Part shown: positions 46,787-55,606 of the stretch, piece after piece
Layout of the letters: every line of letters begins with the position of its first letter
How positions within the stretch are numbered: the stretch's first letter is position 1
Origin: Alloascoidea africana
Lineage: Eukaryota > Ascomycota > Alloascoideomycetes > Alloascoideales > Alloascoideaceae
Assembly (NCBI GenBank): GCA_030581615.1
Contig: JAKTTT010000001.1
Coordinates: 496,001-560,000 of the forward strand
Direction of reading: 5' to 3'
Length of the DNA: 64,000 bases
Translations under genes and position numbers: made by a program
The notes under the pieces: generated by a model
Told to the model about the DNA's origin: nothing
The model's input: only the letters and a program-made list of their open reading frames with translations
Database searches by the model: none

Positions 46787-46797
46787 TGAATTCTTAT

Positions 46798-46910
46798 GCC
46801 ACCTAGCGGAATTGAACCGCCGACCTTTGCATTTCTTAATGATTTAACACTTAGCTTAAATCTAAAGTGAAAGATACAAGTGCAACGCTCTACCACTAAG
46901 CTAAGGAGGC
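46798..46910 (-). tRNA. tRNA-Thr(UGU) with a 42-nt intron
   Basis: Mature 5' end GCCTCCT, D arm GCTTAGTGGTAGAGC, anticodon stem TTGCA/TGCAA with loop CT-TGT-A giving anticodon UGU (Thr, ACA codons). The intron follows position 37, as in all nuclear tRNA introns, and contains a perfect hairpin GATTTAA/TTAAATC. The T arm GGCGGTTCAATTCCGCT carries the B box. The acceptor stem pairs except for one U-U at position 4-69, which is unusual. CCA is not encoded. It is the only tRNA I find in the window. Confidence 0.9.
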
Positions 46911-47631: not shown

Positions 47632-47707
47632 GGACTAGGTTGGAGGCTCCTGCTCTTTTGGGATTTGGGTTTGTGCTGAGTTTTAGCTCTCTTCTCCAGC
47701 AGCTAAT

Positions 47708-50700
47708 ATGGAAACCCAAGATCTGCCACCCATCCCACAACATCACAACCACCACCACCCGGGCCTGGACAAGTCTTCCTTTCCGTCTAGCAAGGAAAAT
47801 CAGAAAGATAGGCCTCACAGGAAATCGGTTTCTTTTGCCCCCGACCAGCATTCCAAGAACATGGCTTCTTCCCAAGACCTTGACCTCGCACCCCAGGATC
47901 ATCCAGGGGTGGTCAAGATTACTGAAAAAGCGACACGGTCCGCTATTAATTCCCACAGTTTGTCTGGCACCCAATCCACCATTCCAGAGCTTATCGAAGA
48001 GGCACGGTCCTCTTTGCGAGAGGTATATATGCTTACATTGTGTTATTTCTTTTGTAGCTTCAACTAGCTAACATACTCTTCATGTAGTACGAAAAATGCT
48101 TTGAAAAGAGCGACCACAAACAAGCCTACTTTGCATATGTATATGGAAACACCATAATCACACAGGTTATCCCCCGCCAGAGCAATTACTATAACTATTA
48201 TACAGAAAACAAATCTGGCTCACAGACTTTTAAAGATCTGAGAAATGTGGGTGTCTCCTATTTGTTTTTGTCTAAGCTCAGAAACAGCCAAGTTTCAAGT
48301 CCCTGATAAATGACGTTAATCAGTAACCAACCACCCTTTTTTTTTTTTATTAGATGTACAACAACGAAGTGAGAAACGGAAATGTAGATTTGTGCATGCT
48401 ACACATTACATTCAACAGTTCTTCAAACGCCAATGAGCCTTCTGCTTCCCGTTCTCCAAGAAAAGAGAGCAGTCGCCATGACCATCATCACCATCATCGC
48501 AACACCCAGCAAGATCCCGGCTCTTCCTCCTCGCCATCCAAGACAAAAACAAAAAGCCGTAATAAAGGAAAAGCAAAGTTGATGTCTACGGAGTCTTTAG
48601 ATCAACCAGATTCGGCGGAGGCGTTATTGGATGACATAAAACAGTTCGAACCAAAAAGATATACGAAATCACGACCAAAAAAATCATCATCATCAAGTCC
48701 ACTCAAAAAGAAAGTAAGGGATAAAGAAAAGGAAAAAGAGAAAGAGAAAGAGAAAGAAAAGGAGCCATTCTTTAACATCACAATTACTCCAAATGAAAAA
48801 CAACGGGAATCGTCTCCACTTAAAAAACGAAGCAGCCGTCAACCTGATGTCGATAAACCTCAACCCTCTAGATCATCCAAAACGAGCATTTCTCCCGCCC
48901 CACATGCCCCTCCTAGTTTGCGCTCAGAGCGTTCTGAGAATTTTTTTGCAAACAGCTCTGGTAGCATAATGCTGCACTTTGATGATACAAAACAGGATGT
49001 GAAACCTGTTGATACCAACTCCTTCACCTCTTCCATCAACAAGGGCGACTCGATATTGCCTGGGAAACATATCCTGGCAAAGGAAAAAGTGCGTAGGAAC
49101 TCTTTGACACGTTCTCAATCGAGATCCAGATCACCATCTGTGAGTAAATACAGAGCCGATAATCACATTTTTCCTGTCCCTATACCTCCTCTTCCTACAG
49201 CACCAGAAAGAAGAGATGTGGCAATTGGCACTTCTCCCATACCTTCACCTGTGCGGATCGATGCTTCAGCTGGTGCTTCATTTAGAGACTCGTTGCCTCG
49301 AGATATGGCAACTGCAACGGAACAAATTACCTTTGATGCTTCAGCTGGAGCTTCTACTAGGCCGTCCCCACCTAGGGATATGGCTGTATTAACCATGCCT
49401 AACACAGTTGATGCTTCCGCAGGGGCTTCTATAAGACCAGAGCATGATAGAGATGCTGCAGTGTTTACTGAACTGAATACGCTCGATACATCTGTTGGTT
49501 CTATTACTGGGCGTTCTAGATTTAAGGATATGGAAGCATTCACAGAACAACTCACTTTTGACAATTTCGCAGGTTCTTCAACTAGACTCGTTCCTCCAAA
49601 AGATGTTGGTGTAATAACTGAGTTGAATACTTTTGATGTTGCAGCTGGATCTTCAACAGCAATTCCACCTTCAAGAGACGCGATCGCATTCACAGAACAA
49701 CAAATACGTGATACTGCAGTTGGCTCATCCACAAGGTTATCGCCCCCAAAAGATGCTGGAGCCTTCACTGAGCTGAATACTTTTGATGTTGCAGCAGGAA
49801 TGTCCTTCGCGTCTCAACCTCCACAAGACAAGGTTGCATACACCGAACTAAACACTTTGGATGTGGCCATTGGGTCCTCTACACGACTTCCTCCACCTCG
49901 AGATATTGCCACAATTACAGAGTCCCGGGTGTTTGATGCATCAGCAGGTTCATGCACAAAACCACTATCAACAATGGATGCTTCGATGGAGACTTCATTT
50001 CTTACACGAGACAAATCTGTGGATGCTTTTAAAGCATCTACTAGAGATATGGCGGCTGGATTGTTTAAAAAGGACTCATTTGCAATGGGAACAAACGACC
50101 GCTCTACACAGGCACAACAGAACTTTCCTAAAATGATTTCGGCTGCTAATTCTCCTGTGTCAATGCCTTGGTCGCCATCTAGATATGCCTCTGTTGGCAC
50201 ATCGCCTAGAAACTCAACTCGATATAGAAATGTCAACGTTAATGCAACTCAACAGCTCAAGCCTGCAAGCACATCTCCAATATGGGAAGCTCCTCCATCC
50301 CTACCTTCGCCTTCCCCATCGCCATCGCCGCCTAGCTTGGATTCTCCAAAATCTCGATCAAGGTCAAGATCAAGATCTGTGACTAGCAAAAAAAGCATAT
50401 CGCCAAAAAGAAGAGTAGTATCTACACCATCTCCATCTTGGTTGGCATTTCAAAAAGACAAAGAGCTTCCTGAGCTACCAATGGCATCAAAGGTTAGAAG
50501 TCCATCCATTTCTTCCATATCCTTACTATCTCCAGCTGTTGAAAAAACGGCCCCTACAATTGCTTCAAACTTAAAAGTAGAAACTCCATTACCGCCATTA
50601 CCGCTATCTTCTCTGGGCACTTCAGCAAATTCATTTCAACAATCTATATCGTCCCTTGATCTCCCATCCATTCCTCCACTTGAACCAGAAAATGCATCCT

Positions 50701-53356
50701 CGCCTAGGCCGGGCTCTACAGATGGACCCCTGAAACAACAGCAACAGCAACAACCTTACGAGCCATTGTATATTGATGCTCAGACGCTGCAAAACTACAT
50801 TACAAGTGATGAACCAAACGTTTTGCTGCTTGACATACGACCTAGAGAAGAGTTTTTGCACTCGCATATACCTGCAGAAAACGTGGTCTGTATAGATCCA
50901 GTTTTACTCAATCTTCCGTAAGTGGTTAATTGCGAGTTTCCAATAGCCTATTGAGATGAATACTAACACTTGATCCTTCTTTTTTTTGTTGTCTTAGTTT
51001 GACAGATTCTCAATTAGAGGAAGCGCTGAAGCAAGACCTTAGAACCCCTAGAAATGAATATTTCTTGTTCTATCATCGTTTCGAATTCAATGTTCTCGTA
51101 TACTATTCTGGCGAAAGCATAAGGCGATACAATGAGGATACTTTGAAACATTTATATTGGGCAATTGTGTCGAAGGACTCCAAAAAACCTTTGAAACGAC
51201 CACCTCGTTTGCTTCTTGGAGGAATAGAATCATGGGAGAGAAACAATAGGAAACAGAATGCTATTGTTCCTGGTGCTATACCAGAGACACCTCTGACTGG
51301 CTCCAAACCTTCAACTCCAATTAGAGACTCTCCTATTGCCCCCTTTCCAGGACTATTGGGAAGCAAAATAAGTGCAGACTCACCAAAGAATCAAATCCCC
51401 TCAATACCATTACAGTATACTCCCCCATCGCCTTCTTCCAACAGGTCAAGTCCGCTAGCTTTACATATACAACCCGATCCAATTCTAGAATCCCCATTGC
51501 CATATCCAACTTCAAAGTTGCTTGAAGAGCATAACAATAACTCTCCAACTCGCAAAGTCCCGAGGATTAATGTTGTGAACCCCTCAATTCCCAAAACGCC
51601 TCCTCTGTCTGAACCGGCACTAACAGAGAGAAGCCCTGTGAAACAAGGCAAGAAGTCACCCCCAAAAAGGAGGCCACCGCCTCCATCTCCTCTTCTCCCA
51701 CAAGATCCACGCTTTCAAACTCCGCCTCATTTATCTCCAATAGCAGAAGCAAGACCTCCTTCTGTCCATGCCTTACAAAACTCCCCGGACTCGCCTTCCA
51801 CCTATGACAGCCCCAGCCTAGATTACGAGCAGGAAGAAACACCCCAACTAGTCTTTAATGAAAATTTTGAAACCATTGTGGGGCTGAGAAATTTCTACCA
51901 TAGTACGAGTTTCGTCAATTGTATTATTCAATGTCTTGCAGGATCCAAAGAATTCTCCATGTTTTTCCTTGACGGCACTTTTCTCCAATTTTTAAACGCC
52001 AAATCAAAGATTGCATTATTTCCTGGGAATCAACAAGTTACGCGGAAAACCTTGGAAAATGGCATCGTGTATGATTTTGCTTCGTTGATTGTCACAATGT
52101 ATACGAATTCGGGAAGGTGTATTTCTCCCGATCCTTTTCTACAAAAATGTAGGCAATTGAAACCCAAACTTTTCTCAAAAGCGTTTATTCCAAATTCTAG
52201 CAAAAATTCCAAAAAAAGCAGAGGTGAGCGCGATTGCAAAGATTTTCTCACGTTCATGTTGTATAGACTGCATATCGAGATGAATGAGCAAGAAAAGATT
52301 AGTGCATTTTTTGAGTTTCCAGATAACGATGATTATATCGATGAACGCAGGCAATCCAAGACTAGCTTAGATTCAAACTCGCAAATGATGACTGCTTCTT
52401 TACACTCTTGGAAACAATACGTTACAAGCCAAGGGTCAGTTGTTACGTATTTTTTTGAAGGACAGGTACAGACATATCAAAAATGTCTTATATGTGGTTT
52501 TGAAGAAAGCTCGTTTTCAACGTTTTCAACCTTGAGCTTACCCATTTCCTCTTCATTATCTTCGGGGAAAGATTTGAAAAGTTCAGAATCTAATAAAAGA
52601 TTAATGCTGGATTCCTGTTTTGGTGCAATTTTTGGCGAGCAACACTTGTATGGTGACCATGCCTGGGATTGCCCCAGGTGTAAAGAACTGGCTATCAGAC
52701 AAGCCCAATCCCAAGTACAGGATCCAGCTTTACTTGGTAATGGGGTACCAGAAGATGACACCGGAGCGGAAAGCAAAAAGAATTATTTATTTAAAGCGAA
52801 AAAGTTTTCAATTTTCACGACAAAGAAGGAGAGGCCACAGCATAATTCTTCGCAATCTTCTTCCCCATCGTCACCTATCCCCAATGCTAGGATAGGTAAA
52901 AGATCTATTAGAAACATGGCGATCTCAATCTTTCCAGAAACGTTGATTCTACATATTGACCGGTTTGGGAAAGTCTTCCCTCCTTCTGGAATTAATCTGC
53001 CTTCTCCTTCAAAATTGGAAACCACAATTTGTTATCCATTACTCCTAAATCTTTCCAAGTATTCTTCAAACTTTAACCCAAGGGCAAGTGACAACGAAGA
53101 GATTATATACTCGTTGTTTGCAGTGGCTAATCATGTCGGTACCAATGATGAGGGACATTATACAGCTCTTGTCAAGAAAAGGGTTGTTTATGATGATTCG
53201 GACGCAAATAATTCAGAACTTGCTTGGTGCTATTTTGACGACGAGCAAGTTAAAATTGATATTAAGCATGGCAATCCAGATGCTGGATTGGGGAAAAAGA
53301 ATAGTTTTATTAATAACGCGTTTGCTTATGTTTTGTTTTATGAGAGGATTAATTGA
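47708..53356 (+). CDS. Rhodanese-USP family protein (Doa4/Ubp5/Ubp7 group) lacking the catalytic Cys
   Basis: 1,798 aa from four exons: 47708-48022, 48088-48246, 48354-50917, 50998-53356 (introns 65, 107 and 80 nt). The N-terminal helical part (EEARSSLREYEKCFEKSDHK) resembles the MIT/USP8-dimerisation region of Doa4-type proteins. A low-complexity linker holds ten 25-residue repeats (about 460-709). A rhodanese domain lies at about 963-1090 (VLLLDIRPREEFLHSHIP). The USP fold starts at about 1308 and ends at 1798, with zinc pairs CLIC and CPRC and the His box DEGHYTALV, then WCYFDDEQV. The Cys box reads GLRNFYHSTSFVNCIIQCL: Ser 1317 (AGT, 51908-51910) stands where Cys is needed. The rhodanese domain also has no Cys in its active loop (YHRFEFN). 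The protein is probably an inactive ubiquitin-binding scaffold. Everything else in the gene looks intact. Confidence 0.88.
49257..50006 (+). repeat. Ten 75-bp coding tandem repeats in the USP gene
   Basis: Ten in-frame units of exactly 75 bp. Consensus per unit: hydrophobic-D-x-x-A-G-S-S-T-R-x-x-P-P-(K/R)-D-x-x-x-(F/I)-T-E-x-N-T. Unit starts are 49257, 49332, 49407 and so on to 49932. Copies have diverged in DNA sequence but none has gained or lost a residue until the tenth, which degenerates. Confidence 0.9.
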
Positions 53357-53980: not shown

Positions 53981-55606
53981 TCAAATGAAACTGGGATCCA
54001 GTGAGAGATAGCCTTGTTGGGAGCCACTGGACCCGGGCCTGGAACCTCTTGTGGATCGTGATGAAATTGACGCATTACTGCGGTGACCAGAAGCGCCAGG
54101 TTCTCGAGGAGTGTCGCCACTCGTTATGTTTTTCAAATCCGAATATATTGACCACAATTGGGTCTTGAACTCATTCATGATAGATTTATCTTCCTCGACA
54201 TTTTGCCATTTACTTCTCTTTTCAGATGACCGACTTGGGTTTCTCTCTATCTTTGATTCGAGTTGAACCAGATGATTTGCGTCTGTTTCGTCTTCTTTTG
54301 GTCGAATCATATCGCTAGATTCACGAGAGTTTGAATGTGCAGGCGGAACGTTTGCATGCTTTTGAATTTCCTGCGTGATGATTGTATCTAAATCAGCAAT
54401 TATATTCAACGGTTTAGAAAGGACGGTCTCCCAGAATGGCTTGTCTGTATCCGATGTAGTTGAAACAGGAGTCAGGAATTCTGCATTCCACTGATCTATA
54501 ACTTCAGTGGTCTCGCTCGTAGAGGATTGGGTATCAAAGTCGTGTGATAAATCGTTCGCATCAGTTCCCAAGTCAATCAACTTTGGATTTCCATGATCTT
54601 CTAATCCTGGGGTAGACGCAGGTAATTTAGCAGGTTGTCGATTTGACTTGACCTTGGATTTTTTACCCTTTGCCTTTACTACTTCATTCCGAAGATTCGT
54701 AAACAGGGACCTTTCTACCAGCTTTTTCAGAGCAAGCATTTCTTTTTCTTCCGACTGAAGTAAAGTGTTCAGTCGATTGATCTCTTCTTTAATCTCAAGT
54801 ATATGCATTTCTTTCACTGCAAGCTTTCTGATGTTGTCTTCTGCACAGCTTACTGAAGAGCTAAACAGGTCCGAACTAGACTCTCCATTCGTTAGAGGGT
54901 CACGAGCAGGGCTGTCGAGGAATGAGCCTGGCTCAGTGCGAGAAGGAGGCGTCGCTGCAGTAGAATTTGTGTTGTTTGATACATTTGAGGACGATGTCGA
55001 AGAATTTGAGGAGGCTGATAAAGAAGGTTGTGTTCTACGATGAGATCTGCTGCCCGTTGTGTTGGATCTACTAAGCGAAGAGCCCTGTATCTGTGTAGGC
55101 GCCCGAGCTTTCAGTGGAGAGTCTACCCCACTAGCCCCAAACGAAGGGCCACTAATTTTGATCGGACTTATTAGACTTGCAGCACCAGTCAGAGAGCTCG
55201 AATGTGCGTGTACATGTTGAGTGTTTACAGTGGGACTGTTTGGACCACGAGAATTCTGAGGTGTCAAGTTCAAAGCACGCGCTGTAATGCTACCCGTTGC
55301 GATGGAAAAAGACCGGCCATGCTCTGGACCTCTCGATGATGCCTTGTAGCGAGGAGACGAAGGCAATTTATGAGACGTAGCTGCTGTAGTTGTCGTTGAT
55401 GAGCTGGACATCGAGCTGGTTGGAGAAGCAATAACAGGCGTCGCTAGGTTCAGATTCAGACCTTTCTTCCCCTGACGATGTGTAGAGCCAAACTGCTGGG
55501 ACTGGCTGGAACGGCTCGTCAGGGCAGAGCAATCGTGGTCTTCGGCGTCCTCCTCAAGAGGCAGCTTTGTTACCAGAGTATTGGGATCGGTCTCGGGGGA
55601 AGGCAT
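53981..55606 (-). CDS. Ser-rich coiled-coil protein of unknown function (Tda11-like?)
   Basis: 541 aa from ATG 55606; the extra upstream codons start on GTG and are rejected. A long Ser/Thr-rich disordered N-terminal half contains SP/TP sites. Then comes a helix NIRKLAVKEMHILEIKEEIN continuing as a coiled coil to about residue 310. A conserved-looking C-terminal block follows (KPFWETVLSKPLNIIADLDT, MNEFKTQLWSIYSDLKNI), and the end is Ser/Gly-rich. The order, a NLR-LA-KE-x-EILELK-type coiled coil plus a C-terminal helix, is reminiscent of yeast Tda11 and the fungal DUF4048 group, but I am not certain. It shares a 234-bp divergent promoter with KEL1, carrying Reb1- and Rap1-like sites. Confidence 0.7.
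   Translation of the reverse strand: MPSPETDPNTLVTKLPLEEDAEDHDCSALTSRSSQSQQFGSTHRQGKKGLNLNLATPVIASPTSSMSSSSTTTTAATSHKLPSSPRYKASSRGPEHGRSFSIATGSITARALNLTPQNSRGPNSPTVNTQHVHAHSSSLTGAASLISPIKISGPSFGASGVDSPLKARAPTQIQGSSLSRSNTTGSRSHRRTQPSLSASSNSSTSSSNVSNNTNSTAATPPSRTEPGSFLDSPARDPLTNGESSSDLFSSSVSCAEDNIRKLAVKEMHILEIKEEINRLNTLLQSEEKEMLALKKLVERSLFTNLRNEVVKAKGKKSKVKSNRQPAKLPASTPGLEDHGNPKLIDLGTDANDLSHDFDTQSSTSETTEVIDQWNAEFLTPVSTTSDTDKPFWETVLSKPLNIIADLDTIITQEIQKHANVPPAHSNSRESSDMIRPKEDETDANHLVQLESKIERNPSRSSEKRSKWQNVEEDKSIMNEFKTQLWSIYSDLKNITSGDTPREPGASGHRSNASISSRSTRGSRPGSSGSQQGYLSLDPSFI

Follow-up and report, generated by a model that had tools for sequence, protein, structure and literature searches.

The window analysed here, a stretch of 64,000 nucleotides from Alloascoidea africana, contains a spliced gene for a long protein with a rhodanese-like domain and a USP domain in which Ser occupies the site of the catalytic Cys. 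The gene and its features are as follows:

47708..53356, plus strand: whole gene of four exons (47708-48022, 48088-48246, 48354-50917 and 50998-53356), joined in frame into 1,798 amino acids with one terminal stop
47978..48417, plus strand: N-terminal helical-looking region (PELIEEARSSLREYEKCFEKSDHKQAYFAYVYGN...), recognised from sequence only
49260..50009, plus strand: ten tandem 25-residue repeats (residues 461-710), in exon 3, with an exact 25-codon period and without indels
50808..51235, plus strand: rhodanese-like domain without an active-site Cys (residues about 977-1093), with the third intron inside its span
51878..53341, plus strand: USP catalytic-type domain (residues 1307-1794), matching positions 1-254 of 254 of Pfam PF00443 (UCH) at E = 6e-38
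51881..51934, plus strand: altered Cys box GLRNFYHSTSFVNCIIQC, reading GLRN-FYHSTSFVN-CIIQC
51908..51910, plus strand: codon AGT, Ser1317 at the nucleophilic Cys site, from alignments with USPs
52223..52246, plus strand: GERDCKDF, counterpart of the QQDAQEF motif, from alignment with USPs
52484..52681, plus strand: zinc-ribbon Cys pairs CLIC (C1509/C1512) and CPRC (C1571/C1574), from alignment with USPs
53153..53167, plus strand: His box GHYTA (His1733), from alignment with USPs
53231..53242, plus strand: YFDD, third and fourth critical residues Asp1760/Asp1761, from alignment with the bacterial USP motif WYKFND

The original prediction described the frame as open for 1,798 codons. This figure is correct for the product, but it applies only once three introns (48023-48087, 48247-48353 and 50918-50997, all GT..AG) have been spliced out; without splicing, the longest unbroken open stretches are 855 and 798 codons. 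An in-frame stop upstream of the gene lies at 47684. Since the USP domain is located wholly within the last exon, the identification of Ser1317 is independent of the splice model. In the codon usage recorded for window positions 48354-50918, CTG stands at conserved Leu (GLRN box; repeat position 22), which makes the standard code, rather than a CTG-Ser/Ala code, likely for this yeast.

In its apparent architecture, the protein resembles S. cerevisiae Doa4/Ubp5 and human USP8, in which a long disordered N-terminal part is followed by a rhodanese-like domain and then by a C-terminal USP domain; the presence of a rhodanese-like domain before the USP domain is a trait of the Doa4/Ubp7-USP8 type that the protein shares. 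Proteins of this type normally detach ubiquitin from other proteins. Unlike these proteins, the window protein has a very long, repeat-bearing N-terminal part. The N-terminal region gave no significant match in Pfam or PDB and is possibly a targeting region of the MIT/USP8-dimer-like kind. The repeats that follow share the pattern D-x-x-x-G-S-S-T-R...D...F-T-E-L-N-T-F, with D, G, D and T fixed. Comparison of the copies gave a pS of 0.75 against a pN of 0.39, with synonymous sites near saturation, and shows a long-lived coding constraint that is undated relative to the loss of the Cys. The rhodanese-like region matches Pfam PF00581 at E = 2e-4 in the whole protein and at 2e-6 when isolated, and its match to the USP8 rhodanese domain (PDB 1whb) is full-length but weak. 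For the USP domain, the nearest PDB chains are USP21, USP2 and USP8. An AlphaFold prediction run without an alignment reached a pLDDT of 32. The USP domain of Doa4 carries a Bro1-binding YPxL motif; the window protein has YPLL at residues 1692-1695, and the same residues align with the generic FPL strand of USPs.

The missing Cys of the rhodanese domain had been listed beside the altered USP site when a non-catalytic role was proposed. The absence is real, but it carries no weight as evidence for a pseudo-enzyme, because USP8, the nearest member of the family whose rhodanese domain has been solved, lacks this Cys as well (1whb, weak alignment). This argument was therefore rejected.

The central feature of the gene is the Cys box. 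Alignment with USP2, USP21 and bacterial USPs places codon 1317 (AGT, 51908-51910) at the position of the nucleophile, so that Ser stands where the catalytic Cys is expected. The box is also one residue longer, reading GLRNFYHSTSFVN against GLRNLG-NTCFMN in USP2, GLRNLG-NTCFLN in USP21 and GLNNIG-STCYMN in a bacterial USP. The extra residue sits between the nucleophile position and the conserved oxyanion Asn (N1311, aligned with USP2 N271), increasing the distance between them to six residues from the normal five, and the loop that bears Ser1317 has lost its conserved Gly (the G1314 column). A role in oxyanion stabilisation has been ascribed to this Asn (USP7 N218, USP2 N271; PMC10867860). Other key residues are preserved: both zinc pairs (C1509/C1512 and C1571/C1574) and the His box (H1733) are present, as the original prediction had it for the Ser, the longer box and these motifs alike, and Asp1760/1761 are retained too. 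The QQDxQE motif reads ERDxKD, a change whose KxD for QxE is also found in one Cys-bearing bacterial USP. With respect to USP/UBP membership (MEROPS C19, Pfam UCH), the protein has a complete UCH domain together with the His and Asp, and lacks the catalytic Cys; a DUB fold minus an essential catalytic residue, which defines a pseudo-DUB, is present here. For the N-terminal 142 residues of the domain, the nearest PDB chain is USP2 entry 5xve, at 28.7 bits versus 26.5 for Cys-bearing chains, and the 5xve sequence itself bears Ser at the nucleophile.

Other cysteines in the vicinity were considered as substitutes. C1325 corresponds to an invariant helix Cys of ordinary USPs, and C1321, one helical turn on, has a counterpart in Doa4, so neither looks compensatory.

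Of 46 columns identical in a bacterial USP and in the human proteins USP2 and USP21, 35 are kept in the window protein. Among the 11 that are lost, seven show conservative replacements and four are drastic: G1314 and C1317, non-conservative changes within the catalytic loop, and R1339G and C1738V outside it. Loss of invariant columns is not significantly concentrated in the catalytic loop (2/4 versus 9/42; Fisher p = 0.24). A background for the Cys box was provided by one bacterial MAG, in which about 11 distinct USP Cys boxes all contain Cys. The bacterial and archaeal genomes, viral contigs and plasmids searched contained no close relative of the window protein.

The Cys box differs from every canonical one by an inserted codon and no fewer than four substitutions. 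None of the other reading frames of the region contains a canonical box. A single base-call error therefore cannot explain it, and a frameshift or hidden intron was likewise rejected, since no frame encodes a canonical box; the Ser has thus passed the base-call check, in that neither a single miscall nor a frameshift can be its sole cause. Although just one assembly was examined, a sequencing or assembly error behind the Ser is the least probable of the explanations considered, given that the Gly, the Asn and the length of the box deviate as well and that neighbouring genes are intact. Decay also fits poorly. When neutral evolution of the coding sequence was simulated, copies free of stops fell to 13% at 0.01 substitutions per site, to 1.5% at 0.02 and to 0/400 at 0.05. 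Taken with the repeat pS/pN values and the retained columns, the stop-free frame gives good support to an intact, constrained gene and makes decay improbable, as the original prediction suggested. Redundancy is plausible, as S. cerevisiae possesses several related USPs (DOA4, UBP5, UBP7 and UBP11; PMC7653365), and it would suit an early pseudogene, in which a single strain or a redundant paralogue had recently lost catalysis. This account is improbable, however, as it would need at least four substitutions and an inserted codon rather than one hit, in a gene whose 1,798 codons, three introns and metal, His and Asp residues are all intact.

Among readings that grant the protein a function, a serine-type USP with Ser1317 as the working nucleophile of a remodelled loop would account for the retention of His1733 and Asp1760/1761 and for a loop altered by more than a point mutation. 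It is nevertheless very unlikely, for the Cys-to-Ser USPs that have been tested are dead (Ubp8 C146S, and the inactive control C236S of S. pombe Ubp4), and N1311 is out of its normal spacing to the nucleophile. Deubiquitinases are not known to include a serine-type catalytic class. A less remote alternative, although still an unlikely one, is that the USP domain neither cleaves nor binds ubiquitin and survives only as a folded module for protein interactions, the role proposed for USP39/Sad1; those proteins, which lack the catalytic Cys and His, act in splicing (PMC10919355). The extra residue and the lost Gly next to the ubiquitin tail point in this direction, as does the replacement of QQDxQE by ERDxKD; but KxD for QxE also occurs in a USP that has its Cys, and the His, Asp and zinc sites are still there.

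The reading that best accommodates these observations, with a probability of roughly 0.6, is that of a natural pseudo-deubiquitinase that belongs to the Doa4/Ubp7-USP8 type and is retained for a role other than catalysis, probably as a scaffold or a ubiquitin/ESCRT binder. Loss of canonical catalysis is well supported by Ser1317, the longer loop and the missing Gly, and we infer that isopeptide bonds would not be hydrolysed at a useful rate. This role would most likely be played at endosomes or ESCRT-III, to which its N-terminal and rhodanese regions may direct the protein, and the uncut USP domain could serve as a scaffold or hold ubiquitin. The protein could also compete with an active paralogue or, alternatively, supply only the ESCRT-III-stabilising role of S. 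cerevisiae Doa4. According to a review, Bro1 recruits Doa4, which stabilises ESCRT-III non-catalytically (PMC6925526). Binding of ubiquitin by the USP domain is favoured because of an engineered precedent: Ubp8 C146S shows no activity towards Ub-AMC but retains binding to K48-diUb, with a Kd of 4.6 uM (PMC6172466). In S. pombe Ubp4, the Doa4 counterpart, C236S was used as an inactive control (PMC2935449). The residue inserted beside the ubiquitin C-terminus, together with ERDxKD, could reduce such binding.

Several known systems help to situate this probable pseudo-deubiquitinase. Like the pseudo-USPs USP39/Sad1, S. pombe Ubp10 and USP50, it has a USP fold from which a catalytic residue is absent, and like Ubp10 it has no catalytic Cys and an intact His box (PMC2935449). 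It differs from USP39/Sad1, a splicing factor, and from USP50, a USP8 paralogue that lacks other residues, in being a Cys-to-Ser change within a rhodanese-USP protein; it differs from Doa4, Ubp5 and USP8 in the Ser at the nucleophile site and in the loop that is one residue longer. The residue exchange is identical to that of the engineered Cys-to-Ser traps Ubp8 C146S and the USP2 chain 5xve, whereas here it is natural and is accompanied by an insertion and the loss of the loop Gly. Pseudo-DUBs are already known, and this gene would add a new variant to them; no report of a natural Cys-to-Ser change in a rhodanese-USP was found in the literature searched, the coverage of which was incomplete. 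The Cys-to-Ser exchange is the substrate-trap mutation used in laboratories. Should the Ser prove to be fixed in the lineage, the same mutation would have arisen naturally, the catalytic and structural roles of Doa4-type proteins at endosomes would be separated, and the non-catalytic ESCRT-III role would become directly testable.

The MAG that served only as the Cys-box background, the Cytophagales genome CAMNOX01 (0.7 Mb), contains 13 clustered USP-family matches that resemble the eukaryote-like proteins of amoeba symbionts, and the Cys boxes read were all canonical. Within the window, a 541-codon Ser-rich ORF without a Pfam match (53984-55606, minus strand) is convergent with the USP gene. 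Just upstream of this gene, at 46797-46910 on the minus strand, an intron-containing tRNA with the apparent anticodon TGT (Thr), not detected by ARAGORN with a bacterial setting, was identified through an Rfam match.
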